Assembly (NCBI RefSeq): GCF_000003815.2 | Contig: NC_049989.1 | Span: 4,497,141-4,561,140, forward strand | DNA length: 64,000 nucleotides | From: Branchiostoma floridae | Lineage: Eukaryota > Chordata > Leptocardii > Amphioxiformes > Branchiostomatidae | Direction: 5' to 3' | Made by a program: the position numbers and the translations under genes | The notes under the pieces: generated by a model | What the model was told of the DNA's origin: nothing | Databases searched by the model: none | What the model saw: only the letters and a program-made list of their open reading frames with translations | Part shown: in pieces, positions 3,016-58,920 of the stretch | Layout of the letters: each line of letters starts with the position of its first letter | How positions within the stretch are numbered: position 1 is the stretch's first letter

Positions 3016-3035
3016 GCTTTGGGATTCCGACAATT
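3016..3035 (-). other. Probable 5' UTR piece with an intron just upstream
   Basis: Immediately above the ATG at 3015 the minus strand reads tcttttag before AATTGTCGG, a good splice acceptor. Translation therefore probably starts in the second exon, joined to a non-coding first exon farther right. Confidence 0.5.
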
Positions 3036-3909
3036 CTAAAAGATACGTTAATTATATGTGGTTGGTATGATGCACTATCGGAGTGCTTGCCTGCAATCAT
3101 AGTGCTTCTTCACTAACGTTTGTTGTCCCTCCCTCTGACATTTGTCTGACCACTTGACACTGGTTTTGGAAACAGCTAATACTTTACATCTAACGGCTTA
3201 AAAATGAAAGTGTGGATCGGGAGCTATCAATGTTGACAAAGAGATTCAGACGCCAACACTGGGGGTAGGAAAAACTTCAAGCTTCAACTCTCCAACTGAA
3301 GTAAGATTAAAGCAAATACACTGTACCTGGCGTTATTTATCGCCGATGTGTAGATCCTGTTTGCATCAATCCACACACAAGCATGTTTAGATTATATATG
3401 ATTCCGCCTACGCGCATTCTGCATCAAGCTCGATTATGTAGAAGACCGATTGAATATTGAGAAACTCCATACAGTAACCTGTGCGCAATATCATTAAGTA
3501 CGTCATGTCTGTGTTGTCTAAGTTACGTTCATCCAGTACATTATTTGTTTCTTTCCTCTTAATTGACGTAAGCTTTAAGAAAATGGATCGATTGAACGAC
3601 CCAAGCAACTTTAACGAAACCAGAGATAATGGCCTCATGGTGTAGATTGAAGAGGAATCTGACAAATGCTATCCTGAATTTTAAACCAGAACCCTGCATT
3701 TTACACACCGGAATGTTGGTTAATAGTCATCTGCACCAAGTGCTACAAGCAATCATGGGATATCGCTACATGTGACTAAACAATTAGCATATACTGATTA
3801 GTCTGGAGGCAACCTGGAATATTGAAAAGAAATGGTTTCAATCTTAGAGAGATATGGGGAAGTACAATTTATCAGATAGAAATGAAGAACCAAGACACAT
3901 GGTACTCAC

Positions 3910-8155: not shown

Positions 8156-8803
8156 CTCTTTAGGCTTTCTCTTATTCTAGAATTAGAAAAAATATGGATT
8201 GAACGATTTGTCATTGTAGATAAACTCATTTTCTAATGGGATGTATGGCGTTTGTACGACAGTGATCATTTTAGGTCAAGTTGATGACATCACCTATCTT
8301 GTCTAAACTGTAGGAACAAGGAGGTTGTATATCTCTATATAATGTCCTTGGTTCAAACAAACAAATTTCAGATATCTAAAATCATGGCAGTGAAAAAAGT
8401 TGTTCGCGTAAAGCCCATTGTTGTCACTTGACTGTGATATGCAAATGAGCACTTATCTGAAAGGCTTGCGCCATGTCCTGGCAATGTTGTTTTGAAAACG
8501 GCCCTGCCCTGAACTATTGCAAGCGATAACTTTACATGTGTTGAGTTTAAAAGCTTTTAAGTTACAGTGACTAAGGAGCGTTGATAAAAGCTCCTTGCAG
8601 TGACTAAACATTGAATTTCAAACAGTGATGAAATCAACATAAGATCTCATATTGCTGGAGGGTACAATTGTGACAACAACGGAGCATTTGACGCTCAGAA
8701 ACTTTAATTTCGAGCACAATGAGCCACAGTTACTGTACAAAAAAATTAAAAGCTCAATCATCTTCGACATATAAAAGCAGAAATTCTGTATAGGAACACT
8801 CAC

Positions 8804-18439: not shown

Positions 18440-20802
18440 TCAATCGTTGACATTGTACACTGGGTTCTGGTACGTCTGTCCCCCAGGCTCTTGTGAGATC
18501 CTCGCTCGTGGAATCAGCATGCTCTGTTGAGCCAGGCGTTTTGCATTTTCAGAAAGCCACTGATTTTGACTAGCCACTGCGTTCTTGCGACTATGCCTCT
18601 GTAAATGTGAAAAAAGTGAGATAGTTTTTTATTAATCCGATTGTCTACGCAATTCCGTGATACAGTTACTAAAGAATGCTTACATGGCAGTCCAGGCAAC
18701 GTCAACTGTACAACTTACAGTAATGTGGAATGGATTTGTTTTATGTGGAATACATATGAGTATTGAACAGTTTTGTTCCTGTTGACCATGAAACTGTTCA
18801 TGAAACTGTTATGTTTTCTAAAGGAATTCGGAAACATTCTATTTTTGATGACCTGCCGGCCGCGTTCTTTTTCTTTCTTCTAAATCTAGCCAATGAAAAC
18901 AGAACGACTGATGACGTCAACAAACGTGCGCTATATACCTTAAAAATTGTTATTGCGTAGTGTTGGTAAAAGTAGCTAGTAGAGGACGAAGGTTCGTGTC
19001 CCCCGCTCGGAAGTTTTTCATCCTTCTTTTTTCCTTTTTAGACAAACATATATGTCACAGGGGAGACTGGAATCCAGGGGAATTCGGAATTCGTCTAGGG
19101 GAATCTCCCCTAGTCTGTACACAACGCTCTCATCTTGCGAACAGGGCATTGCACGTCCTACAATAGACTTTTTTAAATTCCTTTTCTGACGATGTTTCTC
19201 TTTTTTTTTTCTCCCCTTCCGAAACATCCTGCATTTTCGTCAAATATGTGGCCTTTCTAGTTTACCTTTGCAGTGCAGCAGATCACCAGCACCACAATAG
19301 ATGTGATGACGACTGCAGCACCAACACAGACGAGTAAGATGTAAACTGGGTTGCTGTACCATGCTGAAAAAAGAAGGCAAATACATGTATATTCATGCTT
19401 TAAATATGACTTGTCTGAATATTTTATGGGCCTGCGTGAAATACATTATATATATGTATGTACATTGTAGTAGTCATCAAACATAACATGTATCTTCATG
19501 TGCATATTGACCAATCACGATAACTCAGCTCTGAGTGAAAATTATTTAGTGACACATCATTGAAATATTTGTAACACTTATGCATCTGTCATATCATAAA
19601 GAGTGCATTGCATGACTTGTACCATTTTGCTAACAATGTGTTCAGCTCCTCAAACATAATACTGACTAACTGACTCCCTAGCATCAAACAATGACCTTTA
19701 TTTGTTACAAATTAAACTGATAATAGGTCACATGTCATTTTTTCTCATCTTAGCGAGATCTAGAATCTTGACTTGATTTTTCATTCATAGCTCCTTGTTG
19801 CTCAGCAGCCATAACTGTAATGTATGTACTCACCAACATTATTCTCATCTCTAGCCTTGTTCACCTCTGGAAATGGGACAGCAAGATTAAAATACAAACA
19901 TTGATCATAGCATCATTTAAAAATTGATGTCAGTTATTCCTTGCTGCACTTTTTGATTTGCTGCACTAATTAGATAAAGACAAACATTCCAGTTGACAGA
20001 AGCATGTAAAACTACTGTGAACATATGAGTAATATGCCTGAAAGACAAAAATCACTGCATTTTGTAATTATGTATCTAATTCACCTATGCTTTCAGAGGT
20101 AACCATGGAAATACATGTACCTGTGATGCTGGTGACTGTGGGATCTATCTGCAGATCACCAATGTTTGTCTTCCCTGCCAACACATCCAGGACTTGATCA
20201 CTGGCAATGGGTGTGGTTGAGTTGAAATGAACCATGAAGTTTACATTGATGCTTCCGGGACTAAAAGATAACCAAACGACAAACATGTGAAGTACATGTA
20301 GGAGGAAAATCCAAATATATACATAAAACTGATGATCAAAGATTAGTAAACATTCAAGATTAATTTTGAGTTTGCTTGCATCAGCTGCAAATCAAATGAC
20401 TACATTGTATACTGCTTACTTGGTGGAAAAAGCATGCTATGCTTTTGTGACATATAGAAAACCTAAGTACAGAGTAACTTACGAAAAGCCGGTGACATCA
20501 ACAGAGTGGTATGTATTCCCAAGGCTGCTATTGATGAAGGCAGCATCCAGCTAGGAAAAAAAGAAATTTTAAAGCAAATATAAAATGCCATTCTTACAAA
20601 CAAACCAACAAAACCATTGGCCCAAACCAATTATGATAGAGAGTTATCGTTATTGTTTTAACATTTTAAACTGTACTGACGTTTTCCTGGACTTCTGCAG
20701 CCAAAGTCTTGAACTCATCAGATGCTTGATTATGCAGTTCATCCCTCCAATCACGATTCACAACCTTCATGACACCTCTGAACGAACGTGCCATCGGAAG
20801 GT
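18440..20802 (-). CDS. Giant gene exons 37-42: SEA domain, transmembrane helix, NPVY tail
   Basis: Exons 20681-20802, 20483-20550, 20121-20260, 19834-19866, 19266-19363 and 18440-18598. Exons 37-39 form a SEA domain ([13 protein letters not shown], then [10 protein letters not shown], then [12 protein letters not shown]). The G-SINV step at about 4612-4613 matches the G/SVVV autoproteolysis site, so the protein may be cleaved and stay together non-covalently. Exon 41 encodes the hydrophobic helix ending ICCTAK. The tail is basic at first and ends [12 protein letters not shown]; NPxY is a PTB-domain or endocytosis motif. No C-terminal PDZ ligand is obvious. Confidence 0.8.
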
Positions 20803-23800
20803 CTAGGAATGGGATGTAAATAAATGCCATGTTAACAGCCTCAATGAGTACAAAATGTGACAAATAAAGTTCTGGCATCTTCTCTGCTATGATCATGATA
20901 GAAGGAATCTCATCTTAACCCATTTGTTTTTGCAATTTGAGCATCTTGTAGAGCTTTCTATAAAATTGTTTAATGGATACCCCCTTACCGTCGGTAGTTT
21001 TAGTTGATGCAGTGTTTCCTTCACTCTTTTCAGTTGTAGGAATGGTGGTAAAGCTTTCGGTTTCCTCAGTTGTAGCGTCTGACTTTGTTGTAGAACCGGT
21101 GGTACTTGTGGTCGCTCTTTCTGTTGTATGGAGGCCAGTAGAGCTCTCAGCTTCCTCTGTTGTAGTATCTGGCTGTGTTGTAGAACTGATGGTAGAGCTT
21201 TTGAAAGGTGTTTCATACTCTTCGGTTGTGGTTGCTCTTTCTGTTGTAGGGACTGTGGTAGAGCGCTGAGTTTCCTCTGTTGTAGTATCTTGTTGTGTTG
21301 TAGAACTGATGGTAGAGCTTTTGAAAGGTGTTGTTATTTCATACTCTTCGGTTGTGGTCGTTCTTTCCGTTGCAGGGAGGGTGGTGGAGCGCCCAGTTTC
21401 CTCTGTTGTAGTATCTGACTGTGTTGTGGAACTGATGGTAGAGCTTTTGAAAGGTGTTGTTATTTCATACTCTTCGGTTGTGGTCGCTCTTTCTGTTGTA
21501 GGGACTGTGGCAGAGCTCTCAACTTCCTCTGTTGTAGTATCTTGCTGTGCTGTAGGACCAGTAGTAGACCTTTCAGAGAGTGTCGTTATTTCATACTCTT
21601 CGGTTGTGCTCGCTCTTTCTGTTTTGTCTGGCTGTGTTGGAGACTCAGGGAAAGTTATTACTACAATGACATTTGTTTCACAGGACATGGAATCTACAGC
21701 GTTGTCTCTGACTTCAACTGTCATGGAAACAACTGAGGAATTGTCATTAAACTGTGGTACTTCACTCATAACGTAGATCCAACCAGTTGAAGGGTTGATG
21801 CTGAAGAGGTTTGCCAGCTCTCCTGTTTTGGACTTAAAACTGTAGGAAACTTCACCGTTTGGACCATTGTCAAGATCTTCTGCCTCTATGGTGATGATAG
21901 TCGACCCTCTTGTAAGATTGTGAGAAGCAATCTCAAGACGTTGATCTTCTGGGCACTGTGGGGCTGTGTTGGTGCTTACTTTGGTCACGATCATACGGAG
22001 ACTGACTTCATCTGTTTTTGGTGGTGAACCGTGGTCTGATGCACTGACCCTGACCACGTAGGTACCACTTTCCAAGGCACTTCTAATGGTTACACTACCA
22101 TTTGTAGCATCTATGGAAACAAAGGGGCTGAGACTTGCAATCCCGTAGGTGATTTTGGAGTTATCGTCGGACCTGTCGGCATCAGAAGCTTGGATAGTGG
22201 TAACATGAAAGCCAATGGGGGAGGTGGTTTGAAGGTTATACTCAGTGTCAGGAGGAATGTTGATGACTGGTTTGTTGTCATTCTGGTCTGTTATGTTTAT
22301 CGTTATCGTTGCTGTCCCCGTAAGTGTCGGTACCCCCTGGTCAAATGCTTCAACGATGATACTGAACGAAGTGCGCTCCAACGATTCCAGGTCAAACTCA
22401 ACGACTGAAGTTATGACACCCAAAGTAAGATGCACTGCAAAGTTTTCATCATCCAAACCTGTTTGGACAAGCCTGTACCTGACCTCACCGTTACGTCCAC
22501 TGTCAGTGTCATTTGCAAAAACTGTGAGTATCGGCGAGGCAATGGGCTGGTTTTCGGCAATAATGGCATCGTATCTGTCCTGCTGGAATATGGGCGGGTT
22601 CTCATTTGGCAAGTTCTCTTCACTGCAGTCCTCCCCTTGGAACCCAGGGAAGCATTCGCATGCGTTTGGGGCGACACAGGTGCCTTGGCTGGAGCAGTCA
22701 CTCTTGCTGCTGCAGTTTGCAATGTTACAGGAACTGCCTGACCAGCCAGGAGCACAGCTGCACGTGTCGAAGCTCACACAGCTTCCGTGGCCTGTATCAA
22801 AGGATCAGAGAAACATTCATTCGAAAACAAATTATTATGCACATCATATGTTTGTCCTAAAATGATATTCTGTGTCTCAGTATGATTGATATGATAGGAA
22901 CATCATAATGATTTAAATTAAGCATTTGTAGTACATAGACACAGATACATAGTTACAGTCCACCAGTACTCACCAGAACAGTACCTCAGTGCTTCACAAG
23001 AGAAATTAGCACAGTCATATCCGGTATACCCACTGTCACATTGACACAGGTTGGGCTCTATGCAGCTGCCATGGTCAGTGCAGTTATTCTGTTCAGCGCA
23101 GTCGGGCTGATCACAACTGGCACCACTGAACCCTGAAAAGCAGCTGTAACACAACAGCAGGAACAGGAGATGTCATGATTGTGAGGAAGTATCATAATGT
23201 GTTTGACACGTGGTAAATTTGCTTATCATATAGGGAGCATAAACAAACACTGCAGTTTGTCGAATACAAATCAAGATTCTACAATATGACTTACTGGCAT
23301 TCCTTTTGCCCTTCAGAACTGATGACACAAGCCCCATTTTCATTGCATTCTTGCAACTCAGGGCAGCTTTGGGCTTGGGCGCAGTTCAGACCTTGATATC
23401 CGCTGTAACACTGGCAAACGTTCGGACCGATACAGTCTCCTTGGCGGGAGCACTGGTTGACTGCAGGACAGTCCGGTGTGACACAGGAGCTACCCGTCCA
23501 GCCCTGCTCACAGTAGCAGACGTCTATGTCCACACAGTGGCCGTGCCCTGCATGGCAAATGCATGATTGTTTTCCTTACCATAGTTAGTAATCAATGACA
23601 TTTCCCAAGTTATTAACACGAACTTGTATTGTATTGTAATTGCGGTATCTGATCCAAACAGCCACCTATTAGAACAAAAAGTATGTCTTCCCTTTTACTT
23701 CATGCACTGATATGAGAAAGACATGTAGGATATGAGCTAACCAGAGCAGTGATCCAATGCTGCACACGAGAACTGGTCACACTTGTCGCCTGTCCACTGC

Positions 23801-26800
23801 TCATCACACAAACAGGTGTCGAAGTCCACACAAATTCCATGGTCTGAGCAGTTAGCAACGTTTCCGCATGTGGGCACCTTGCTACAGTCTTCACCTAGGT
23901 GGTATAGATGTTAGTGAATCAGAATTGTGCTTTGACAGAGGCCCGGAATATAAATTCAATGCCAGGAACACCTTGACCTGATTAAATCGCTCATCTGCCA
24001 GCCCCTAATGCCTTAAATTGCTAGAGGCAGAAGGGCCAGTCACAGCCCTGGACAGAAGAGTTTGCATTACACAGACTTGGTAGACATCTGTTAGGCAAAA
24101 TCCTAATACATTACCCGGTATTCAAGATGCCAGCATGTTTGACTTACCGATGTAGCCTGGTTTACAGCTGCAGACATCTGTCGCTATGCAGATCCCATGA
24201 TCTATGCTGGTGCAGTTTTGTACAGCATAACATGTCGCTACATGATTGACATGATAGAAAAAATTAGAAATATGTGTCATCACTTGTTTATGTTCATATA
24301 TTTTCTGACAATAGATTAAGACAGCAAGAAAAGATGTCAGGACCATCTGAAGGGGTCAGAAATGTCTGACTTGCTGACAATAATACTGTTCCCACGGAAA
24401 AACAAGTATTTTTGGACCTAATACATTTTAGCACCAAGTGTTCCTCAATAGAAATGTATCAACAATATGCCATAAATCAAATTTGAATGACTAGTATTGT
24501 GTACAAATAAAGTATGATAGCACCCTTTCCATGAACAAAATGTTCTAAGCGGTAATATAAATAATAAGCACCATCCAGAGGATAATCAGATATTACCTTG
24601 TTGGTCACAGGCTGCTCCCTCCCATCCGGGCTCACACCTACAGAACCCCAGCTCACACCTGCCGTGATCCTCGGAGCAGTCTGTGCAGTTTCCAAGGTTA
24701 CAGTCTTCACCAGACCAGCCCGTTATGCAGTCACAGGTTCCGTTTACACAGCGACCCCTACCGGAACACTGGTTTGGGCAACCTGTGATAGTATGAATGG
24801 GCCGATAAGTTTTCAGGAGAAAAAGTTGGCCTTCTACTACAAATACTACAATGGGAATATGGACAAACAATATTATCGGACACTTGAAATTTCAGCACCA
24901 GTACTAAAGTGGAATACAGTAAAGCCAAAGTTATGCCTTTGAAAACTTCCTGTTCAGTAAATGTTGTGTCGTTGGTGATTGACACGTCAAAGATGCATTC
25001 ATTCAAAAGAGTGCCAGTCAATCCGAGGGCGATGCACATCTCTTCAGCTTTCTGAAACATAGATTACACAAAGAATGTGTACGTAGAGTATTGCCTTCTG
25101 TACTCTATGAACCTCATGTATTTCATAATCATGCATGTTATACATATGCATGCATCTTCTTATATACCAATTTTGATAGCTTAAAGGAAATACAATAGAC
25201 TGTTGAAGATAACAGTGTTCAAATTTTTCGGTGGCATTAGAAACAACATTTGTCAGTAGAAGTAACCAAACGTACTTCCTTTTGCTCTTGTGTCAGGCCA
25301 TCTATGCCCACAGAAGGGCGGTGTGCCGGGTCAGAATAAGCAGAATCCATGACATCATCAGGATGGAAATTCGAAGAGTTCCAGGACCAGGACCCGATCA
25401 GACCGGAGCCGTGGTGGGTGTTGTTGATTCGCCCTAGAAAATCAACAAGTAACATTCTGATCTGATATGTATGCAATGTTGGCATTTTTGCAACAGAAGC
25501 ATTTTTTGCTCTGTGTGAAATATTCTACCCTTGGAGCGTAACGTTCATACATGTAGCTCTGCGCCGGCATTCTGGAGTACAAGTATTATTAGTTTCACTG
25601 CATGATCTATTACTTACAGGTTTCAGCAAATACAGAAGAGTCGTTGTAGACTGCACCGTCTGGACCAGTGAAGTCATTGGCATCATCGTCATCCATGAGC
25701 CCACACAGCCCCTCCGTGTTACCCTTGAACGTGGCAGTGGGGCTGAACAGAATGTTCACAAACTGCCGGCCCATCTTTGGTGAGTACCGAACATCAAATG
25801 ACACAGTTGCTCCTGGTTGTTTGGTTAGAGGACAAAGAGGCAACCATGATTTTTAAAAATCAAATTTGCGTTTGTTTGTATGTACTGACAGACAACCATC
25901 ATCTCTAAATCATCAGCTGGGACATCATCGATAAAAAGAGAAATGGCATTAGATAGACCATCAGAGACTACGTCCACTTTCCAAATGAATCTAGATCATT
26001 GAGAACAGGACATTTTTGTCACCTTTTCATAGGGTACACTACTTTGCAAAACTTTACCTGAAGCAAACGTAACAGATATGATGATAACAGCCCCTGACTC
26101 CGTAGCATTTGTAGATGGTTTCTGGGCGAGCAGATGTATTGTCCCATTGTTCAGAAGATATTTCTCTCCAACAGAAAGTTGGTGCAGTTCACCGTCAATC
26201 CTGTAGTGGTCAAACCATAAAAACATTAAACGTCTAACCCCTGGAAGGCAGGGAACAACGGACGCTAAACCGGATAGTGAGTGAGTGTGAGTGGGTTGAA
26301 AGAGTTGCTACTTTCAATCGTAACATAATGACATTGTTTTTGTTATGTTCTCGTGTACTTTGAAACTTCAAACATGGATGTGTTAATCAATTGTCACTAT
26401 GAAGTAATTAGAGAAAGTATATAACTACGTGTACCTAATATTTGGAACATTTTCCGTTGCATTCGGTACTGCCATCAGAGTGACAACGCTGTGCCCAGCC
26501 TTGACTGCAATCCCTCCAATCAGAGAAGCACTTTCGTACGCGTACATTCGAGTTTGAACGCCGAAGTCGTTGGACACGCTTTTGCAGTCCCAGAACTCAC
26601 CAATGCCATGGTAGTCGTATGATATCCCTAACATGCAATGCAATGTAGAGAATCAAAAGACAGCACTTGTGTATGCATAGCACAAATATCTTTATCTGAA
26701 TGGAATTCCTGTACTTAGTTTTTCTTTATGCAACAGAGAAACACATGCTTTTGACACAGTTACCATCTAATGTCTGAAGATGAGGGTCCCCTCCAATGGG

Positions 26801-29800
26801 ACGAGGACGGCGTAGCTCGCAACAGTCGCCGAACCACTGACGCGAGCAGACACAATATGACGGACAGCTGTCTGTTGATGTGGTGCATCGGCCGTTCCCG
26901 GAGCAGCCTGCAAATATCATATATCACCAAACATTCTCACGATGGATAGAAAAAACAATTTGAAAGTCCTAATGTTGTTTCTACCAAAGATTCAAAACAA
27001 TGCATCTGAAATTTTGACTGATGACTGTACCTTGACATGGCCTGCAGTCTGGCTGTCTGCAGTCTGGCCCCATCCTCCCCACCACACATGTAGGTGGGAT
27101 CCCGCACTCTGTCTTCTGTGGGCACTTACAGACGCAGTCTTGCCACACAGGTTCCTCGTCATTCTCACAGTCAGGACAGCTACATAAGGTTGATAAAGAC
27201 ATGGCAAACATGTGAAGACATAGCAATATGACAATGAACACCATCCTAGGTCCATTTTAGTTTGTAGGTGTCGTCCTCTGTTTGATAAAAGAATAATGCA
27301 TTATCATACATTGTGCCGCATTTGTCTTAATCAATTGAAATTCTGATGTTTTGACAAGATATACTAAAGATAATTCCTGGACACTTATTATATTAATTAC
27401 GCTAATGTCAGACAAGGAGGTACCAAACCTGTCAGAACAGATGCAGCCTTGAGGACCGAGAACCGACTCGTGGCAGTTGTTACATGTGCACCTACACGGA
27501 CAGGTACCATCACTCATCTTTACATCCCTGCTACCATCGGCGCAGGTGCAGGAACACTGAAACAAAATTGTGAAGTGTCAGCTACTACTGTCATGTACCA
27601 AACATTCATGATTCTAAAAGAAAGCAAAATTCAACTGAACACTGAGCTAATTATACAGCTTACGTCACATTTTCCAGTGCTGGTCAGTTCCGATGGGCTG
27701 TTGTCAGGACATAGACATGGGCAGTGTAGATGTCCCTGACTATTGACCGTTTCGAACTCTCCATCGGGGCACACATTACAGTTGCATCCGTCACCAGAAA
27801 TGTCTGGGTGCTGTTTGGAAGAAATAATACAAATTATGAGTAATTCATTTTCCCCCAAAGTCATGGAAGATCATTGCTCCAACATAGGAATTGGTATTCG
27901 TTTATTTATCAAAATGGACTCATCATTCATATGCTATGTACTTATAGGAGAAAAATATTGGCCACTAGTAGAAAGCTTCATACCGTGAAGCTTATATTCC
28001 TACTTGTACAGTTACAAGGGCACATGCAGAAATCCTCGATAGTTGGGTGTGGCGTCCCAGTTGCTCCATCTGGGCATGAACATGAGTCCGCACAAATACT
28101 TGATGGCTGTGCTGTACAATCTCTGAAATATAATAGAGATTGTCAAATAAATATGCATTTCTCGGAGCTATACAAAGTGTCTTTACATTGACAATGATCA
28201 ATTGCAGAAACCTAATGTGTAAGATATTCTCTTGATACTGAAACAAAATGGTTTTGTACCTTCAGATAACAACTAAGGTAGCCTGCAGTATGTTGGCCTG
28301 ACATAGTGACACACGAGGAAGCTAACACGCCCTAAGACTTTATTTACACAGTGTAAATAAAGTCTTAGGGCGTGTTAGCTTCCTCGTGTTATGGACCCAT
28401 TCAACGAGAGTCACTTATCAAATATGCATCCGAAATGTCTTAACAGTTTCAATACACTCATTATAGACAGATGGTGCAAATATAAAGTAAGATATGATTT
28501 CTAACCGATCGGAATCCATCCACTCCTCGCGTCTCCATATCTGATCCTGATAGTAATCGTTGTTTCCTGCTATTACGTTGAATGCCCCTTTCAGATAGCC
28601 CAACGATGAGGCGACCCCAACGTGCTGTGGTCTGTCTGAATATGGGCATTCGGTGGAACATGACTGGGCTGATACACGCAGGAGAGCTTCTGATTGAATG
28701 GATGTTGTGATAAAGTATCCAAAACCGTCCTCTTCATCAGATATATCTGGGAACAGACATAGACGATTGGAAAACATTTTTAGAAGACTGATTCACATAC
28801 TCGCATTGAGGAAATAGCAGTTATAGTATGATTCACAAGCATTCTTCATAGGTAAGTTGACACTTGAAAATTTAGAAGTCGGTTTACCTAATGGTATCGT
28901 CCATTCATCCTTGCCACTTTCTCCAGATGTTGGAAACTCGATGAAAAATGTTGGTTTCGCCTTTAGCTCCAATCTGATGAGATGGTCACTTTCAGTTGCA
29001 GTTCCAGAGAAAGACGATATCTCGATATCTGCACTGTTCTTTAATTGAAAGAGAGGACTCAACTTTGTCAACTCATATTGCTTGGTAACAGTCTGAGAAC
29101 AAGATACCAATATAAAGAGTCGCTAAACATTATAGAGTAGTTCAACATTCTACGTTCTACATAAATATATCTGGGTCTAAAGTTTTGTACCAGCTACCTG
29201 TGACCATATACAATGTACAATTTTGAATGTTGTGAAACACTCACGGATTCGTTGTTCTGGACAAACTTGAACCGTTGGCTTCCTTCTTGTGGCTGCCAGC
29301 TTCCACCGCCGTCAATATCTGGCTTTTCCACGTTGGAGGCCATTTCTATGCTGCCTGGACCCTGACGTATGTATGGAGCAAATTACCAAAGGAGAGTTAG
29401 ATCTGAAGCAGGTTTGCACTTCCAGGGGAAATGATAAACAACTTTACAACACAGACATACAATACTAAAGCTATGGAAAGGGGTGGCTGCCATGGTTTCT
29501 TGATATTCGACGTGTTTTCTTTACATTTTCAATGATTTTGTTTGAAATGATTTGTGTTATATTATACTGACTATTACAATGCAATTTCCATTAAATCTTA
29601 CCTACCTCGGCGTAGATTTGATACTCTGTAACAATGTCCGCCCATATTTTAGCAGGTATGCACAGTATCTCGTTTACACACAGGGAGGCGTAGCTTGGAG
29701 ACAATTCCGTCCGAAAAGCGCCTGTGGTATTTACCCCCCTAAGGGAACAAAACGTACAAATTACATTCAATACATATAAAACCGAATGAAAGGGAGAGAA

Positions 29801-38800: not shown

Positions 38801-41800
38801 TGCTGCATACGGTGTAGTCCATGTTGGGATTGTCTAAGATATTCCTGTGCATTTGGATGCTTCGTTTATATCCGCTGATCTCAATGGTACAAGACGTGTT
38901 GGCAGTATGTTGCTTATACTGATTTTTGTCACTTAGTGATGGGTCAAAGAAATTCCCTTCAAATATGTTCATTTCGATTTGGATTTCAAAAGGGATTAGG
39001 GACTGAAAAATAGCCATAGCAAGTGATAGAGTTTCCCTTGCGCTGTTGTTAAGTACGGTATTAGATATAAAACTGAGATTTTGTGCTTGTCCGTCCAGTT
39101 TTAGAGCTGGTTGATACGGGCATCTGTTTCCAGATACTGCATTGCCTACAAAATCAAATGCCCTCTGCCTGCCCGTCACCTGCAGTGCATACCGTTCATT
39201 TCCCGTGATATTGCTGTTGTGTATTCCAACGGTGGGATGTTGATCCGACTGGCCTGCTCCAGTGTTAACACGTATTCCTCCTCTTTTATTTCCGTCAATG
39301 TGACTGTCGTATATTCCCACCTGTGTGTCATGGGACAGGTCCAGATCTATACCGTACCAGTTATTGTCTCTACACGTTATGTTCGAAAGGTAGTACGAGC
39401 CGTGTTGAGTGCTTACGTGTTGTATTTTGATTCCATAATCATTGCGGACATAACTACTAAGCAATCCATTTTTCGTCACAGTCACGTCTGTTAGTGTAGT
39501 TAACCCATGAACATTTTGCAGAAGCAAACCCCCATAGCTGTTGGAATGGACCAGTATATTGCTCATGTTTACGGTACCATCAATGCTGGAGACTGTTATC
39601 CCGTAATAATTATAAGCAACATGTACATCGGACAGGGTGATGTCGCCGCTTGATGAAGTGATGAAGATGCCATAACGATGGTTTTCAAAGCCCGCTGAGA
39701 TTAGGCTGTTTTCTATATGAATGTTTGACTCCGACTGTTTTATCTGTATCCCATAGTAAAAGTTCCTTACACTGCAGTCTGATATACGAAGTGTTGTCGT
39801 ACTGACGGGGTTAGTGGAGTTACTGCTCGGTCCAATTACATCCAACCTTGCCACAAAGAACACATTTTGTGAACTAGAAGCTTTTAAAGATAACGTCATA
39901 ACGGGGTTAGTCGATGTGAATACTTGAGGGAGTCCTGAAGAGCTGACTTGGTTGTAGTAATCCACTGATCCAACTTTGAAGGCTTCATCTGGTTCATATG
40001 AATCGTAAACAGTGAGGCTATTTCTTGATGACGGGCTGCTGAAACTACTCCTTGTTACAGTAAGACGAACGAAATACCCTTCTGTGGCCCTTACAGTTCT
40101 AAGACATTGAAGCCTCGCTTTCTTCTTGATGCCATTTACGATCCACCATGACTGACCTTCCACAAGTAGAAGAGAAGTCGGTAACGAGCACATTCTTATC
40201 AGAGGGACAAATCGACTGCCGGCATATGCTTCAAGTTCCCACCACGATAGCGAGTTCAAACTTTTAACATCGATTCCAACACCATCCCTGGTACCAGAAT
40301 TGACCAACGTTAATCCCTGCAGTAGGGTATCAGGTTGGGAACGTTGCAAAGCTAAGTACTCTACTCCAGACCGACCCCCAGCTAGGTGCTCCATTAAGAC
40401 GTTTGTTACAACGTTCGGTGATTGAGACCCTTGCATAGAAAGACCAGGCGCCTTGTGTCGATGCAGGTGTCCGACATGAAAAATGTTGACGTCATGTAAC
40501 TCAAAAGTTTGGTCCGACAAAGAGACAATGCCTCCCCAGCCGGGAGTGGGGTCACAAGTTAACTTCAGGTGCCTGTACATATACGTATCACTTCCGCATC
40601 TATTTTCATGATGTAAGCTGCATTCTCCGATGTTGTCTTCGAATCCATCACACCTGATAGTGATCCAATTTCGATTGGAGGGCTCGTAGCCAGACGTTGC
40701 AGACTTGTACGAACCAAGCCCCAACTGCCGGCAGGCGATCGTTGCGAACTCGAGGTATGAATTCAATGGCCAGTCCCAGCACACAGGAATCCATTGTCCG
40801 GAGTACTGCACTTCTAGCCACCCCTGCCCGGGGCTGGAGCCTCCCGTTAACCGAATTGGAATCGTTCGGTTCGACACGCTTTTACGGGTGACATCAAATG
40901 TTATAGGACTTGATGGTAGTCCGTCTAACTGCAGTTTCCCCAGATTGAGGATGCCAACACGTTCCTGTACACGGAACTCAACTCCTGCTTGGACACTGAG
41001 AACAGAGCCCGGTAAGATCGTGAGGTCCCGTGTCAGGGTGACGGGGCTATCGGAGGTGGTTATGTGCAATGTCCCATTCAGACGGCCGCCTAAAGACGAG
41101 GCTGTCATGGTTTCTGTGTGTACAGTGCTTATAGAACTGCCTGAGGGCGAGTCTAGATACGAGGAAAACTTGACCAAGCCTCCGCTGTACCAATCATTGT
41201 TGTCAAATATCTTCCCTTTTATTGAATTGGTATCTGTTGTTCCCCACCAATTGTTTTCTGCTGCAATCTGATTCATAGCCAATGGAAGAGAACCATCACT
41301 GCTGCAAAGCTCTAAACCATTTGGACTATTGAGAAACGAATTTCGGGTGATGGTATGTTCTTCTCCTGATACTACAACTTCGATTGTGCAGTACTCATTC
41401 AGCGGATCCGAGATGTGGGCCAGTGACTGTGGTTCATACTCATTGTTTTCAAACACGTTACCTTCGACAACAAGAGGGAGAACGTCGGCAGACACATCGG
41501 TCGTGTTGAATAGCACCACCCGTCGACAGACATTGCTGCCAAACCTATTCCCTGTAATATTCGCAGTCTTGTCATACCCATGTACATGGATGACCGACTT
41601 ACTGCCGCACTGACTTGAGTTAAACTCACTGTCCTGGATTGTAACCTCCGCTTTAGTCCCGCCAACTTCGATGATCGTCGCTGAGTTGTCTTCAAAAACT
41701 CCGCCTGTGAGTTGGACGACCGGGAAACGATCCTCGTAAGAGTTGCCAACGGTTATCATGACTGAGCCGTTCTCATTGGAGGCGAAGTCTGATTGGTCTA

Positions 41801-44800
41801 TGGTGATTTGATCTAAAATCGATGAAGATATGATATTCTGGTATTCCTCGTATTCTATTTCCAGATCAAATCCAGTACCAACATTACCTTTCGCCACACC
41901 ATTACGCAAGATTGTGTGACTTTTATTGTCCGACACGCCAAGATATCGGGCATGGAAACCGTCTAGACCGTTATGATCAAAGTGACAACTTTCGGTCACA
42001 AGATTGACAAGGGTTGTGGTGAAGACACTGAGTCCGTAATGCGAGTTTGTGCTGAAGTTGGACTCACGTATGTCCACGGTCATAGGGACTTCAGACAGCA
42101 TCAGGCCGGCACCACTGTTTTGTTCAAACGTGCTGACAGTGATCTGGAGGGTTGATCTTGTTGGTCCTCCGGTAACCTGCATTCCTACTGGGGAGTTCTT
42201 ACTGAAGGTGCTGGAGACAATGGTCACGTTTGCTGAAGGATTCTTCACTATCAACCCGGCTCCCTGATTCTCTGAGATGACACAATTTGCCATTTTAAAA
42301 CTAGTAGTAGAGTCATCAACTCTGACAGCTGCGTCTCCAGAGTACTTGATATTGACGTTGTGTAGCAGAGGGGGGACCGACGTGCTGATAATAGCGACTC
42401 TCTCTGCGTTTGGGTTTTCTCCTCCAGCATGGAATATGTCTACATTGTCTAGTATGGACGTCATAGCTTCATTGGTTGTGCGAATGTCTATTGCTTTCCA
42501 ATAGACGTTCCCTTTGTGATTCAATCCCTCACATACCACACCGAGATCTCTTCGGTATCGGCCCTGGCCTTTTATGATAAAGAAACATGTAACGTTAATT
42601 AGTTAGAAACGGAGTGAAACCAGCATGAGGTGTGAAATAGCTAATAATATTTTACCCCCCCCCCCCCCCCGATAAACTGTGGGAACAGCATATACATTAT
42701 GATATTGTGGGAATGTTAGTTGCTGTATATACATCTTGATGTTTGACTAGCACATAACAATGCAAGAAAAATTGTTCATGAACATAATCATATTACCGAT
42801 ATCCCAGTCGGACTTAAAACGTAATTCAGCAGTTACCATTTCATAACGTGTCCACATGATTTAGTCCATTTTTACTGAATCTTTTTGTCTTCTTGTTCCT
42901 TCAACTGAAAAGTGCAGCCTCAGAAGTTTGAATTCAGAAATTCAATCTCCTAGAGGCTAAACCAGATAGAATCTGACTAATACACACCACCTTGCGCTAA
43001 ACCACAAATACATTGTTGATGCCTCAGTATATGATGAGCAATTTGCAAAGCAAAACTCACGACATTGAGGTGGTGAGTCAAGGTCATCGTGGTTGCACTC
43101 GTAGATGTTGGTCTCATTGCCGAGACACTCCAGGTCACACACAGCCATGCGTCCTGTGCCAAACTGGTACTTGTTCTCCACTCGCCCGGTTGCGAACCCC
43201 AGTTGTCGACAAACCACCTTGAAATATTTCAAAATCTATTGGTTTATGGACGTGAAGGAACAAGTGTAGTGTGAATGATTAAAATTGATACTTCCGAAGA
43301 GATTGATTAAAACTGATTAAAACGTATAAAAAAGAGATTTGAAAATATAAAGGAATATCCTCTTATGATACTTGGAACAACATAGATAACATGTCATTAA
43401 CTATATGCCAAACCTTCATCAAAATTGTCTTACAGTAAAGGAAATGACACAAATCTCCTATTACACTGAGCAGAGGTACTGATGTACGTTGGAGTTCGTT
43501 CACTGTTGATTGTGCTCCAATGTAAAATGATTAGAACTGCATCGGGAATAAATGTGTAGTGTTGAAAGGGTGTTCACTTTTGATACTTACTTATTGATAC
43601 TTCGTGCAAGGAAAAGGTAACAGATCATCAAACATACGTTTAACCTTGAAACTGACAATTTGCGTCTTGTTACTGGCATGGTGATGGCATGATGAGGCAC
43701 CTCGGAGACACTGTGGAGGCACTAGCTGTGGAGGCATCTTACCACTTACTTTATTTTTTAAATTTCAAAAACAGTGCCTTTGTTGGAGGCACATTGGATT
43801 TCGTTGGAGGCACGTTTGTGTTGTCTAGATCAATAGTGCCTCAAATAAACGGGGACGTGCGATCGCGAGGATGCGTAGAAATGGTTTTGACTTTCCCCCA
43901 CCTGAACATGCCTGTTTTACCCTTTCTCCTCTTGACAAATAATATTATTAACATAGTGATATTATATAAATGATATTATCTGAATAATATTATAGATAAT
44001 TCCTCTCATCCGATCATCGTCTGTGCTTTTGGAATGACTAGTGGTTATATGCACCACCCACACGGTGGCGATGTATACATCTTCAATTGATTAGTTACAC
44101 ACCTCAAGTTTGCTTTTAACACGGTTACGTACAATTTAGCACTGCTGTAAATTGTTTGCTGAGATTAAGTGCGTACATGTATGTACCACTTTGGGATAAA
44201 GAACTATATGTTCATTTAATCTCATTACAGGGCGAGACGAAGGTAAATTGAAACTAGAGTTCGGGGACCTCATACCTCCATGAAATATTTATGTTTTTTG
44301 TGTGGATGGTATTTATGTTTATAGTCATCAACACAACCAAAAGGACATGAAATATCCGTCAACCAATACCTACATGTAGGATACGGGGACAAGCTGATGC
44401 CCGATATATAATAATGCAAGTACTTACCAACACAACATCAGCATAAGCCACGCGGAGCACAAAATCTAACAGCGCAAACGAAGTATAACACACCAGGTCC
44501 CAAAAGGCACAAGTGGCTAAATACAAAGTTATTTATAATATTCAAATTGTCCAGCATCGGGAAACAGTTGCCCAGCATCGGGAAACAGCTGCTAATGTGC
44601 CAACTGTTACAAATATTTCAAACAGTCCTAAGCAGACATAAATAAAACTACTGGGGGTTCCCCAAACAGCTGTCACCTCACTATCTGCTTGCAGCTAAGC
44701 CCATTAACAAACACATAAAGCACGATGCCTGTACCAATATATCTCAAATATAGGGGTGATTTCTGATATTATTACATCGATTATAACGACAGATACGGCT

Positions 44801-47800
44801 CCCAATATCTCATCGATTCAAGCTTTCATCACACCCCACCAACACAACAAGTATGAAACCAATCCATCCAGCCGTTCTTGAGTAATCATCTACACAGACA
44901 GGGACACATAACAGAAAATATAACCTCCATTCCATAACATTTCATGGAGGTAATAAATCGTTTACTCACAGTTGCTTCTGAGCTCCTCCATGACCCCCTT
45001 GACAGGCAGAGAGAACCCCACATCCCGTCACGTTTGACCTGAACACGTCCTTCAAACACGGTAGGACCCAGCAGCCGGATGTCGTGGTCACGTGTCACGT
45101 TGTTAGCTTGGTCGTCGGGAGGGTTCCACTTCCGGTCGAAGATGATTCTTTGTTCAGGAGTGCCCACCTGTACATTCAAAGAGACGTTATTGACTGATAT
45201 AATGATACTGACGAAGAGATCTAAATACTGAACATGCGCACCGAAGAAATCTAAAAATATTGAATTTTTTTCCAATAAACATTTTCGTTTCGACTCAGAA
45301 GGAATCATCAATCTCGTACGAAGATGTTGTCAACCTTTGAATGCTCATCTACCATATAAAACCACTAAATGGAAAACTAGAGTTCCACGACCGCATACCT
45401 TCGCCAAATGATCCTAGTCTTTACAACCGCTGTATCAATTGTGTTTGTCAGTAATTATGTAAATAAGGTTCTCATTTACATAAATTATATCAGTTGGTCA
45501 TCTCCTGTACCAGACAACAGACGTACACAATCTATAAAGAAATAAGGCATTTATCACATTTTCTGACAATTTATGCAAATATGGATCTCATTTGCATGAT
45601 TAATGTTCAACGATGTTCACCTGTGCATAACTTTTTAATGCTACAAGTAAGAAGTTCCCGTCATTTACCACAATGAAATATAGCGTGTTCTCACTAATTA
45701 TGCAAATTAGGTCTTCATTTTGCATAATATATATATACCAATATTCTTCTCCTTCTCAGATACAAATGTCACATGTTGCAATGGTCCTATTATGGAACTG
45801 AGCGTGTTTACACGATTTCCTAATCAATTATAGAATTAGATACCAATTTGCATAATCAATATGTCATTATATAAAGCATCACTTACGCTATCTACATACC
45901 AAAAATCATAATCCGTTAACCCCATCTTGAGTTGTTCAATTTCAAAGTATGACACTAAACCTGCCCTGCAGTTCCAAAACAAGCCGCTAAGGGGCCCAAA
46001 CCTATACCACTTACTCTCGGCATCAAAAACTGTCTACCACTCAAAAATCATAGCCGCAGCATGTTCAAAACTGGAGATATCAAACCAGGAAATTTAGCTG
46101 TAGTACCGTAACAGGCTGTTAGGGGGCCCAAAATCTAGTTGTTTCCAGATCTCATCAAGACCTACCCATCTACCAAATATCAATACAATCCATTCAGGCG
46201 TTCTTGAGTTATGCTGGTCTCCTACATACATACTGTACATACATACATACATACATACATACAAACATACATACAAACGCTACCCAAAACATAACCTTCT
46301 CGGCGAAGGTAATTAAAGTCCAAAGTCCAACATCCGCTCGTTCGGACGCCTAGATATCCTATATCTCTACATACCCGTGGACTGAAGTCATCAATGCTGA
46401 CACCCAGAGCAAAGTAGACAACTTTTAACCGTTAACCTCATCCAACAAGCCCAAAGAAATAACCGATTTCCAGATAGAACAATCATCATGCATAAAACTG
46501 ATAAACCCTAGATAACCCCTCAAATTAAAGCCATCTGCCTAAAATGTATATCATTATGAACATCTTTGCTTAAGCTACCTGCATGCTTAAAATGATGGCA
46601 ATCCACCATTCCTCTCTGCAGTAATCGTCTTTGGCCATGGAATGTCCTGACAAAAATGTCCCTACAGTTCCCAAAATTAATGTTACGAGGCTGGAAAGAA
46701 ACTTGACCCAATTTGTCACGATGCTAAAAGCCAACAACCCAAATATCAAGACCATGTCATGTTCGGGACAAAAGATACATTTAAAAAAAACTTGTATGAT
46801 CGATAAGTCTCATTAATCATGCACACACAATCGCTAGTGAAACTAGAGTTTGGAGACCTCATATCTCCATGAAATAGTCTGATTATGTAAATAATTTTCA
46901 CATTTACATAATCTATGCTTGGTTATGTACACATTTAGATAACTTACACTGGTCAAACTGTTGATTGTGCAATCATTTACCATTTAGAAGAATTATAGCA
47001 CTTTTACATTAATTATGCAAATTATGGACTTGGGATTTGCATAATTGATATCTGTTAACAAACTACATATGTGACAGGTATTTGAGTCCTACAATCGCAA
47101 ACACTACAATTATAAATTTCCCTCATTGATTAGGCAAATTAAGTGCCAGTTTGCATAATTTGCACTCGATCTCTAAGCTACATACATACCAAATATCATC
47201 TAAATTTGTCGTTCCCTTATCCAGGTACCCTCCTAAGAAGATTTTGAGGAAAACACCCCTGCAGTTCCAGAGCAACCTGCTAGGGGACTCAAACATACAC
47301 CACCTATTCCTGACGTCACAAGCTGTCTGCCACCAAAAAATCATGACCATAGCACATCCTGGTCAAAAGATACAAAAAAACGGAATTCTGCTGCAGTACC
47401 AAGGTCACAGTGACGATATTATACTATCATGAACCAGCACATAATGATAGCCTGATTGTAAATATTATATACCATGTGTAAAATAGATTAGTCTGTTAGA
47501 TTTTAGATACTAGTAACTCATGTAGTGTTCTGTTCTGTATGTATTGTATGTTCAAGTTGCCAAACACTGTATCCTCTACAGTTGTCGTGCAATAAAGTTC
47601 TTCTTCATACCAGGGGCCCAAAATTGACATTGACCTTCGTGTTTCCAGTACCTACCCACATAACAAACACACAGACAGACATACCCAAAATTATATCTCC
47701 ATTTTTCATGGAGATAAATATAACCTCCATGAAATTTCATGGAGGTAAGATCATAATTTCCTATATGACGAAGTAAGAATTATGCCACACTCACAGCTAT

Positions 47801-48040
47801 CAGCCGTCCCCACACAGTCATGCCGACCCCCTCCGGGAACAGCAGCCGAACCCCCGCCTCCACCGTCAGGGTTGCCGACTCGCCGACGATGATGTCATTT
47901 GTGACGTTGTACGGACTTCCCGACAGACGGATAGTGTGGTTGTGATAGAAGGATCCACCTATGTCATCGGGAACTGCACCGGACAACAATCCAAGGAACA
48001 GCAGAGAAAACAGAAAACCGCGCCGCCATAGAGGCTCCAT
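18440..48040 (-). CDS. Giant mosaic transmembrane protein: bark beetle/anakonda-like ectodomain joined to VWD-EGF-cadherin-mucin-SEA-TM
   Basis: I reconstruct 42 coding exons in continuous phase from the ATG at 48040 to the TGA at 18440-18442: 14,259 nt, 4,752 residues. Exons are listed in the block entries. Order: signal peptide; three SRCR/beta-helix units (to about 2237); C-type lectin domain (2238-2355); EGF; PSI-like; unassigned beta-repeats; Cys-rich modules; VWD (from about 3385); EGF repeats; three cadherin domains; Ser/Thr mucin repeat; SEA; TM (about 4675-4697); 52-residue tail with NPVY. The N-terminal half matches the layout of Drosophila Bark/Anakonda, a tricellular-junction protein of about 3,100 residues in which, as I recall, the TM follows the lectin domain. 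Here about 2,400 more residues intervene. Function is inferred as cell-surface adhesion or barrier. The 100-N gap lies in an intron. An in-frame ATG at 48082 is an alternative start, but the one at 48040 gives the better signal peptide. Confidence 0.8.
18885..18940 (+). promoter_or_regulatory. Promoter-like cluster inside the last intron of the giant gene
   Basis: CCAAT at 18890-18894, a full CRE palindrome TGACGTCA at 18912-18919 and TATATA at 18932-18937 lie in the right order and spacing on the plus strand, within intron 18599-19265. No ORF with recognisable content follows. It may be chance or a remnant. Confidence 0.3.
20989..25051 (-). CDS. Giant gene exons 30-36: EGF repeats, three cadherin domains, mucin repeat
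   Basis: Exons 24937-25051, 24597-24782, 24148-24237, 23742-23894, 23295-23547, 22974-23143 and 20989-22791. Exons 31-36 hold about ten tenascin-type EGF modules (CxCxxGWxGxxC). Exon 36 (1,803 nt) then carries cadherin repeats with Ca-site motifs ([33 protein letters not shown]) and a Ser/Thr/Glu mucin array of repeats of roughly 35-45 residues built on [12 protein letters not shown] and SSTISSTTQ. Exon 30 needs a GC donor (AAAG/GCATAA, edge 24937) to keep phase; all other junctions are GT-AG. Confidence 0.8.
25276..26907 (-). CDS. Giant gene exons 25-29: EGF and von Willebrand factor type D domain
   Basis: Exons 26764-26907, 26435-26627, 26058-26200, 25618-25812 and 25276-25433. Exon 25 ends with [11 protein letters not shown], the signature start of a VWD domain (GDPH at about residue 3385). 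Exon 26 continues with [14 protein letters not shown]. Exon 28 has [15 protein letters not shown], and exons 28-29 close with FAETWR as in MUC4-type VWD domains. No CxxC multimerisation motif of VWF is seen. Confidence 0.85.
27031..28122 (-). CDS. Giant gene exons 21-24: cysteine-rich modules
   Basis: Exons 27984-28122, 27664-27810, 27429-27556 and 27031-27179. They show repeated CxC pairs ([62 protein letters not shown]), with roughly one module per exon. The pattern looks like a small disulfide-rich tandem repeat. I do not recognise the family. It separates the beta-domains from the VWD domain. Confidence 0.7.
28311..28389. repeat. Perfect 79-bp palindrome
   Basis: Arms 28311-28349 and 28351-28389 are exact reverse complements (39 bp each) around a single A at 28350. 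The palindrome lies in the intron between exons 20 and 21 of the giant gene. An unmutated palindrome of this size is recent, maintained, or an assembly artefact. Confidence 0.9.
28506..33728 (-). CDS. Giant gene exons 11-20: unassigned beta-rich repeats with a penta-arginine site
   Basis: Exons 33446-33728, 32912-33109, 32407-32623, 32075-32249, 31382-31552, 29933-30114, 29606-29738, 29245-29361, 28888-29092 and 28506-28746. Three repeats share a pattern of hydrophobic-GD/GQ-V-(V/L)-S, then G-(V/I/L)-L-x-x-V, then a strand: [32 protein letters not shown] and [17 protein letters not shown] cannot name the family. Exon 15 has TRRRRRED (Arg at about residues 2840-2844), a furin-type site. Exons 16-20 look like a second beta-domain ([33 protein letters not shown]). 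Donors in this block are GTGAGG, GTGTGT, GTATGA and GTTAGA, some of them weak. Confidence 0.65.
30115..31381. other. Long AT-rich intron of the giant gene, no gene seen
   Basis: The intron between exons 15 and 16 contains degenerate repeats of short words such as aaatatttagaa, aaatggtaaa and tttgaaa, plus a stretch at about 31180-31320 that looks like diverged interspersed repeat. No ORF, RNA gene or clear element end is visible. Confidence 0.5.
31915..32044. mobile_element. Foldback (inverted-repeat) element
   Basis: ctaatctccaagcagatc at the left returns as gatctgcttggagattag at the right. Arms of about 62 bp (31915-31976 and 31981-32044) enclose only a few bases and match almost throughout, including the ttagccggcagaggagttat segment. 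It sits in the intron below exon 14. A poly-C run at about 31799-31809 lies just upstream. Confidence 0.75.
33729..34221. other. Intron between exons 10 and 11 of the giant gene, nothing recognised
   Basis: AT-rich sequence with only short chance ORFs. No repeat ends and no RNA gene are seen. Confidence 0.4.
34222..35982 (-). CDS. Giant gene exons 5-10: C-type lectin domain, EGF pair, PSI-like modules
   Basis: Exons 35882-35982, 35539-35673, 35224-35341, 34929-35107, 34506-34709 and 34222-34323. Exons 5-7 form a lectin-like fold: [21 protein letters not shown] and a closing [12 protein letters not shown]. There is no EPN or QPD plus WND calcium triad, so sugar binding by the classical site is unlikely. 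Exon 8 carries two EGF modules ([19 protein letters not shown], then CRCRNGW). Exons 9-10 have PSI-like Cys patterns ([23 protein letters not shown]). Confidence 0.75.
36159..36397. mobile_element. Inverted-repeat element interrupted by the assembly gap
   Basis: On the left, caaatcaagaatttagctcg is followed by gccgag and ttgtcag. On the right, ctgacactcggccgagctaa is followed by atcttgatttg. These are inverted copies of about 45 bp facing each other across the N run. The true internal sequence is unknown. Confidence 0.65.
36236..36335. other. Assembly gap, 100 N
   Basis: Exactly 100 unknown bases, probably a placeholder length. It lies in the intron between exons 4 and 5 of the giant gene, so the coding model is not interrupted. 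Confidence 0.98.
36458..48040 (-). CDS. Giant gene exons 1-4: signal peptide and three SRCR/beta-helix units
   Basis: Exons 47795-48040, 44970-45167, 43061-43217 and 36458-42568. Exon 1 begins MEPLWRRG plus a Leu-rich core (cleavage around GAVPDD). Each unit has a TLTVEAGV-like beta strand set, an SRCR domain (unit 1 around VVCRQLGF; unit 2 around IACRQLGL; unit 3 around VVCRELGY) and a long run of right-handed beta-helix repeats (NxWxG, NxF, VxDSxF patterns). Each unit closes with NNWWG, HNWWG or QNWWG. Exon 4 alone is 6,111 nt (about 2,036 codons) and holds nearly all three helices, whereas the first SRCR is split over exons 2-4. Parallel beta-helices of this type often bind glycans. The three-fold layout is the strongest link to Bark/Anakonda. 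Confidence 0.85.
42655..42670. repeat. Poly-C tract
   Basis: A run of sixteen C in the intron just upstream of exon 4 of the giant gene (G-rich on the sense strand). Confidence 0.95.
43218..44249. other. Intron 2 of the giant gene, left part
   Basis: No gene. The word ggaggca(c) recurs six or so times between about 43695 and 43815, in a stretch that also has aggcacctcgg; it may be part of a decayed repeat. AT-rich inverted words (aatattatt) lie at 43930-43995. Confidence 0.4.
44250..44955 (+). mobile_element. Repeat family copy 1 (hairpin-ended, non-coding)
   Basis: Begins gaaactagagttcggggacc and ends with an imperfect hairpin, ACCTCCAT (44923-44930) against ATGGAGGT (44944-44951). The 5' end carries ACCTCCATGAAAT (44274-44286), complementary to the 3' end. 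Its right end stops about 15 bp short of exon 2 of the giant gene, next to that exon's splice donor. No ORF. Confidence 0.65.
45372..46315 (+). mobile_element. Repeat family copy 2 (hairpin-ended, octamer-rich)
   Basis: Begins gaaaactagagttccacgac. The 5' end has ACCTTCGCC (45397-45405) and the 3' end has ACCTTC/GGCGAAGGT (46294-46310). The interior carries hairpins of the type attatgcaaat...atttgcataat, with exact POU octamers at 45573, 45590, 45710 and 45846. A 3' tail with ccattcaggcgttcttgagt is followed by a CATA microsatellite (46235-46278). Confidence 0.7.
46839..47748 (+). mobile_element. Repeat family copy 3 (two 3' hairpins)
   Basis: Begins gaaactagagtttggagacc. The 5' end has ATCTCCATGAAAT (46863-46875). 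The first 3' hairpin is ATCTCCAT/CATGGAGAT (47695-47715), matching this 5' end. A second hairpin, ACCTCCAT/ATGGAGGT (47723-47746), follows and may be the end of another copy. Octamers lie at 47015-47022 and 47035-47042. Confidence 0.65.

Positions 48041-49743: not shown

Positions 49744-58920
<9,177 letters not shown>

Follow-up and report, generated by a model that had tools for sequence, protein, structure and literature searches.

In Drosophila, Bark/Anakonda is described as organizing tricellular occluding junctions, with homophilic adhesion at vertices, and the legend to Fig. 5 of the same source gives the domains of fly Aka as SRCR, CUB, parallel beta-helices, and a lectin-like domain; for vertebrates, tricellulin and the angulins are named there in the tricellular-junction role (PMC11698045). 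For the mud crab protein SpBark, binding of LPS by the lectin domain has been reported, together with a lowering of phagocytosis upon SpBark knockdown (PMC6716108).

The gene described here lies in a window of 64,000 nucleotides of the lancelet genome (C11:4497141-4561140), in which all coordinates given without a contig are counted. By the published schemes, its product resembles Drosophila Bark/Aka and mud crab SpBark in having a signal peptide, three SRCR units, beta-helices, CUB, a lectin domain, and a type I transmembrane (TM) segment. The three SRCR domains and the lectin domain start at 106, 976, 1797, and 2512 in SpBark and at about 116, 772, 1606, and 2238 in the lancelet protein (PMC6716108). 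However, whereas the SpBark scheme carries no predicted domain between lectin and TM, the lancelet protein has about 2,300 residues with many domains there (PMC6716108). Because of these domains, the lancelet gene would, by its sequence, be filed as an extended variant of the Bark type and not as Bark itself. In the open-access literature searched, we found no description of an architecture combining a Bark head with VWD, cadherin, and SEA.

Gene model

In what follows, A denotes the copy in the window and B, C, D, and E denote paralogs, which were searched with the exons of model M3 (see below) as queries.

18440..48040, minus strand: whole gene, model M5 (42 exons, CDS of 14,205 nt, 4,734 amino acids)
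47966..48040, minus strand: start codon and signal peptide-like N terminus (hydropathy only)
36236..36335, no strand: run of 100 N (assembly gap) in intron 4, separating unit 3 from the lectin domain

On the minus strand, M5 starts with an ATG at 48040 and ends with a stop codon at 18440, with 40 GT-AG introns and 1 GC-AG intron. An earlier note on this DNA had claimed 42 exons and 14.3 kb of coding sequence, from a signal peptide to an NPVY tail, and M5, with 42 exons and 14,205 nt, bears this out. Exon models were obtained by dynamic programming, with codon scores and splice matrices, and were then corrected by means of the paralogs. The first such model had 39 exons and later ones had 46, 55, or 61, depending on the intron penalty; those with 55 and 61 exons (penalties 7 and 6) were set aside, and a model of 100 to 146 exons, obtained at a low intron penalty, was discarded. 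Removal, by judgment, of three intron-1 exons (47190-47326, 46296-46396, and 45320-45348) from the 46-exon model gave M3 (43 exons, 14,385 nt). Exon 15 of M3 (31644-31730) was then dropped, being missing from the C and D chains, interrupted by a stop in B, and matched over 9 residues only in E, and M3 exons 10 and 40 were shortened at their 3' ends on the basis of the paralogs.

Chaining itself forces the exons of a model into phase, and the phase continuity of the chain is no test of gene unity. When exons were called singly, 29 of 41 agreed with M3, and neighbors called in this way were phase compatible in 23 of 40 cases (one third expected; p=0.0014) and in 18 of the 21 cases where both calls matched. 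Exon 4 (36458-42568) is a single open frame of 6,111 nt that holds the rest of unit 1 and the complete units 2 and 3 of the head. EGF, three cadherins, and the Thr-rich stretch are encoded in exon 36 (20989-22791) by an uninterrupted reading frame of 1,803 nt. These two exons carry much of the architecture argument without splicing. The gene model is not a product of chance, since exon 4 is open over its 6,111 nt and since the exon order of M3 is repeated in B to E. The first exon was matched in B at 89% and in C at 82%.

The assembly gap, absent from the earlier note, is surrounded by inverted repeats (36167-36370), one pair of 17 nt being perfect (36181-36197/36341-36357) and the other, also of 17 nt, being 94% identical (36167-36183/36354-36370); they perhaps represent a MITE-like element, a small transposon.

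Elsewhere in the window (54154-58241), three minus-strand frames with MAM domains and a 534-amino-acid open frame (54157-55758), with a Pro/Thr/Ser-rich start and no Pfam match, probably belong to a neighboring MAM-mucin gene. A chondroitin synthase-type gene is found at 5638-8176, on the minus strand (CHGN at 6.6e-109 and 7.5e-37, in two frames), and a minus-strand open frame of 524 codons (1480-3051) has no Pfam match at E 0.01.

The Bark-type head

41100..47962, minus strand: Bark unit 1 (exons 1 to 4), with beta-helix, SRCR1, and beta-helix; SRCR1 at E=1.2e-17, spliced over exons 2 to 4
38595..41099, minus strand: Bark unit 2 (within exon 4), with beta-helix, SRCR2, CUB-like segment, and beta-helix (Pfam; CUB by profile)
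36459..38594, minus strand: Bark unit 3 (within exon 4), with beta-helix, SRCR3, CUB-like segment, and beta-helix (Pfam; CUB by profile)
35224..35982, minus strand: C-type lectin-like domain (exons 5 to 7), between phase-1 introns

Pfam recognized three SRCR domains and four beta-helix stretches, that is, a threefold repeat of SRCR and right-handed beta-helix. Units 2 and 3 align with each other at E=1e-27, and unit 3 aligns weakly (2e-5) with the exon-4 part of unit 1. Pfam found no CUB in A alone. Built from eight segments (unit 3 of A to E and unit 2 of A, B, and D, with unit 2 of C and E omitted), a profile relates the CUB-like segments of units 2 and 3 to cubilin (6.2e-8) and PCPE-1 (3.1e-6), both matches being partial. 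Similarly, the lectin domain is weak as a single sequence (Lectin_C 0.012, below the Pfam cutoff), and a four-paralog profile (A to D, with E omitted) matches Ly75 at 1.4e-6 over 37 of 112 positions, in the first third of the profile. An AlphaFold model of unit 3, with the three units as the alignment, was poor (mean pLDDT, 45.6), and an NCBIfam search with four pieces (the three units and the EGF-cadherin exon) gave no match.

The claim of a Bark/Anakonda-type head is upheld by these Pfam and profile matches, with three SRCR domains and beta-helices followed by a lectin domain. Moreover, since CUB-like segments are found in units 2 and 3 and CUB is given for fly Aka, the head is nearer to Bark than the earlier note said; judged by domain architecture, all tested Bark features are present.

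The stalk between the lectin domain and the membrane

About 2,380 residues of adhesion and mucin modules follow the lectin domain, in line with the approximately 2,400 extra residues previously claimed. Their order is EGF, PSI, an unnamed triple repeat, RRRRR, Cys-rich units, VWD, an EGF array, three cadherins, a Thr-rich stretch, SEA, and TM; of these, PSI, the triple repeat, and RRRRR add to the modules named in the earlier note.

34506..35107, minus strand: two EGF repeats and a PSI domain (exons 8 and 9); EGF_Teneurin 2.5e-6, 2 stretches
31382..33728, minus strand: unnamed domain, three times (exons 11 to 15), core resembling GD[VI][IV]....G.L.KV; Pfam gave no match in exons 11 to 14
31445..31459, minus strand: RRRRR before ED, residues 2840 to 2844; identical in A, B, C, and D, with no aligned residues in E
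28506..30114, minus strand: region without a family match (exons 16 to 20); no Pfam family
27031..28122, minus strand: four Cys-rich units (exons 21 to 24), by eye; exons matched in paralogs
24937..26907, minus strand: VWD with a GDPH start and a weakly MUC4-like C8 tail (exons 25 to 30); VWD 2.8e-9
22619..24782, minus strand: EGF array of about ten repeats (exons 31 to 36); 10 stretches, Pfam
21644..22603, minus strand: three cadherin repeats; Pfam, 4.7e-39
20989..21643, minus strand: Thr/Ser/Glu-rich mucin-like stretch; 218 amino acids, 77 Thr
20121..20802, minus strand: SEA domain (exons 37 to 39); Pfam, 1.8e-16
20251..20256, minus strand: G-S within PGSI.V of SEA; same in A, B, C, and D
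19266..19363, minus strand: exon 41, encoding the transmembrane segment and preceded by a phase-1 intron; hydropathy
18440..18598, minus strand: cytoplasmic tail (exon 42), from M5
18455..18466, minus strand: NPVY motif; NPVY in A, B, and D, NPMY in C

Two of these domains exceed the Pfam cutoff only as cut-out pieces: PSI, at 2.7e-5 in a 68-amino-acid piece and at 0.035 in one of 121 amino acids, and VWD, whose 2.8e-9 covers profile positions 5 to 155 of 156 in the cut-out piece and which is unlisted for a piece of 1,178 amino acids. Against PDB, the VWD matches mucin-5B at 3.2e-6. The TM segment has the best 19-residue hydropathy of the protein (3.08; runner-up, 1.77), and by hydropathy only, a signal peptide and a single C-terminal TM are present. 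We take RRRRR to be a furin-type site; presumably, the G-S of PGSI.V is the usual place of SEA self-cleavage and NPVY is a PTB motif.

As a profile, the unnamed triple repeat found no match in PDB; its identity to A is 91% in C and 59% in E. A minus-strand gene on another contig (C12:17279001-17289000, at 17.28 Mb) has PSI, the triple repeat, and RRRR, with no Bark or VWD match reported among the best candidates scored, and is a possible relative of the source of this stalk block. Because phase-1 introns bound the block of exons 8 to 40, this block is likely a case of exon shuffling, inserted between the lectin domain and the membrane.

With MUC4-type transmembrane mucins, the lancelet protein shares a VWD with a GDPH start, EGF, a Thr-rich stretch, and a single TM, the match to C8-3_MUC4 being weak (0.014, below the cutoff). 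Unlike those mucins, it has cadherins, SEA, and a Bark-type head, and neither NIDO nor AMOP was among the Pfam matches of its pieces. Its EGF repeats score best as teneurin-type EGF; however, no other teneurin domain was among the Pfam matches, and the protein is type I by the position of its TM, whereas teneurins are type II.

A family of paralogs

A search of the genome (513,431,437 bases in 431 contigs) with unit 3 found A and the following further heads, a lower bound, with 63 of 341 candidates scored.

C11:3189119-3191266: head of paralog B, 81% to A unit 3
C11:3235692-3237842: head of paralog C, 80% to A unit 3
C11:19840607: head of paralog D, 48% to A unit 3, with one TAG inside the match
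C13:10507957 (minus), 10429882 (plus), and 10468907 (plus; matched only over residues 533 to 708): three heads
C4:7225399 and 6867669: two heads
C1:23489340: one head

Two further partial matches to unit 3 lie at C4:6852842 and C1:23468041. Paralog E is the minus-strand copy on C13. Chaining of the M3 exons reproduced their order in B (42 of 43), C (41 of 43), D (39 of 43), and E (38 of 43, several of the weak matches in E probably being due to chance). At the exact homologous place, an acceptor AG was found in 36 of 41 cases in B, 35 of 40 in C, 33 of 39 in D, and 28 of 37 in E; the corresponding figures for a donor GT or GC were 36 of 41, 36 of 40, 33 of 38, and 28 of 37. The C13 plus-strand copy with the head at 10468907 has the exons from EGF through cadherin in order, and for the copy at C4:7.22 Mb, direct reading of the sequence showed the Cys-rich and VWD exons. 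At all 10 loci counted, the exons of the unnamed repeat and of VWD stand behind a Bark-type head in the same orientation. The genome therefore appears to hold about ten genes of the same plan, a copy number that differs from that of fly and crab Bark. Several copies are only 33 to 48% alike in the head, and the join between head and stalk is therefore old in the lancelet genome.

In paralog C (C11:3222001-3252000), exon 4 shifts to another reading frame near A codon 753; this copy may be a broken gene (pseudogene) or reflect misassembly or a sequencing error. In paralog D (C11:19830001-19850000), an intron gain or an insertion of about 1.7 kb splits the exon-4 homologue near A codon 1125.

Between A and B, dN/dS was 0.34 in the head, 0.43 in the lectin domain, 0.19 in EGF-PSI, 0.22 in the unnamed repeat, 0.42 in the next region, 0.19 in the Cys-rich units, 0.08 in VWD, 0.10 in EGF, 0.19 in cadherin, 0.43 in the mucin stretch, 0.78 in SEA, and 0.55 in the TM and tail; between A and C, it stayed below 1 in all regions computed (0.82 at most). 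For M3 exons 16 to 21, the values were 0.42 against B, 0.56 against C, and 0.31 against D. These ratios point to constraint and not to positive selection; SEA and the tail would be constrained only weakly, and the parts without a known domain also seem to evolve as constrained protein.

Divergence between copies

Synonymous divergence is not uniform along the gene. Between A and B, the synonymous difference amounts to 0.62 (264 of 426 sites) in codons 880 to 1525, compared with 0.28 (268 of 945) in the remainder of exon 4 (p=8e-32), and the same excess in unit 2 is found between A and C (p=2e-29). Outside unit 2, exons 4 to 10 equal the stalk in the A-B comparison (0.27 versus 0.26; p=0.58). 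Between A and D, the shift lies inside exon 11, with 0.77 (1178 of 1529) over exons 4 to 10 and 0.35 (471 of 1341) thereafter (p=7e-117). In D, the head diverges from A more than the stalk does; exon 3 of D is again nearer to A (dS of 0.69 over 64 codons). The jumps in exon 4 (A-B) and exon 11 (A-D) suggest exchange between copies; their simplest reading would be that paralogs exchanged sequence, whether by swapping head segments or by homogenizing the stalk.

Proposed function and alternative readings

On balance, we favor a role in recognition and adhesion at the epithelial surface, with a diversified head, beyond that of a copy of the fly tricellular-junction part. This role seems likeliest because head segments differ between copies like replaced parts over a stalk that stays alike. 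The protein would be cut at the putative furin-type site RRRRR; self-cleavage of SEA would leave the head held noncovalently and able to be shed; the head may bind other cell surfaces or microbes; and the tail may recruit PTB-type adaptors. Both cleavages are predicted from motifs kept in A to D. A recognition role is also fitted by the number of SRCR stretches above the cutoff in the genome, at least 150 (150 of 459 candidates scored), together with LPS binding and phagocytosis in the case of crab SpBark (PMC6716108).

Alternatively, the gene might encode a structural junction protein, a lancelet counterpart of Bark/Anakonda at tricellular junctions with a longer stalk, which we regard as a serious possibility that falls short of being probable. 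Its head architecture, CUB included, equals the published Aka scheme, the homophilic adhesion at vertices described for the fly fits such a function, and the low dN/dS is in keeping with it (PMC11698045). However, about ten copies with mosaic divergence, and a head that in D diverges more than the stalk, argue against this role. Fly Bark is a single-copy gene, which also counts against it. Given copy number and mosaic heads, a junction role is no likelier than diversified recognition.

Recognition as the preferred function draws on mosaic divergence, which might instead reflect uneven selection or uneven synonymous rates, without any exchange between copies. The introns of A and D lend this some credit, being unmatched in both halves of the gene (0 of 6,293 nt in introns 1 to 10 and 0 of 7,593 nt in introns 11 to 41), and a recent exchange covering introns gets no support from this comparison. 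Nevertheless, we consider uneven rates improbable: the unit-2 excess seen in A-B and A-C is absent in B-C (0.26 versus 0.29; p=0.43), and A-E synonymous sites are saturated over most of the stalk, so that the stalk is not synonymously frozen. Exchange between copies is, as a suggestion, the reading that we retain.

A further concern was that two genes had been joined: the first, of Bark type, would end ahead of exon 24, and the second, equipped with a signal peptide of its own, would begin at 27244.

27179..27244, minus strand: in-frame stretch resembling a signal peptide, directly before exon 24 (M3 exon 25), the rival gene start; absent in B, C, and D

This in-frame stretch abuts exon 24 and has A at -3 and G at +4 of its start, and E likewise has a Met and a hydrophobic stretch before exon 24. 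We nonetheless judge this arrangement very unlikely because the 27244 start is missing from B, C, and D, which have unrelated intron letters without a Met-plus-hydrophobic stretch at this place; the stretch in E, moreover, is dissimilar. Such stretches occur at 4 of 232 acceptor-like sites as background and were seen at 2 of 42 exons. By eye, one Cys-rich unit crosses the exon 23/24 junction. Finally, a scan behind M3 exons 5 to 22 for an alternative TM-bearing 3' exon, as a gene ending after the lectin exons would need, found none, and the same scan recovered the real TM exon. With exon order kept in B to E, the earlier claim of a single gene stands and, as far as DNA can show, this is one gene.

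The 100-N gap might also be suspected of being a scaffolding artifact that joins two unrelated loci, given its default size, its location separating unit 3 from the lectin domain, and the use of another, out-of-phase acceptor (35967) when exon 5 was called singly. This suspicion can be dismissed as contradicted by the paralogs, to judge from their sequences: exons 4 and 5 are adjacent in B, C, and D, where the 50 kb read per locus contained no N and intron 4 of B has about 255 bases; B, C, D, and E all keep the donor of exon 4 and the acceptor of exon 5 exactly; and the published Bark order is likewise units and then lectin (PMC6716108).

Significance for tricellular junctions and recognition

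The lancelet family has a Bark-type head, another lower part, and about ten copies with mosaic divergence. Tricellulin and the angulins are not known to be related to Bark. The fate of invertebrate tricellular junctions on the path to vertebrates becomes testable with this family, as does the question of whether a junction protein became a diversified recognition receptor. The family also shows a repeated extracellular domain without a Pfam or PDB match, present at ten Bark-type loci and at C12:17.28 Mb. We speculate, as an idea that is tentative and more doubtful than not, that a chordate recognition system arose from a tricellular-junction protein, with about ten giant proteins whose heads or units were swapped over a conserved cadherin-mucin stalk processed by furin and at SEA; if true, lancelets would possess a modular set of surface heads for the recognition of self or of microbes.
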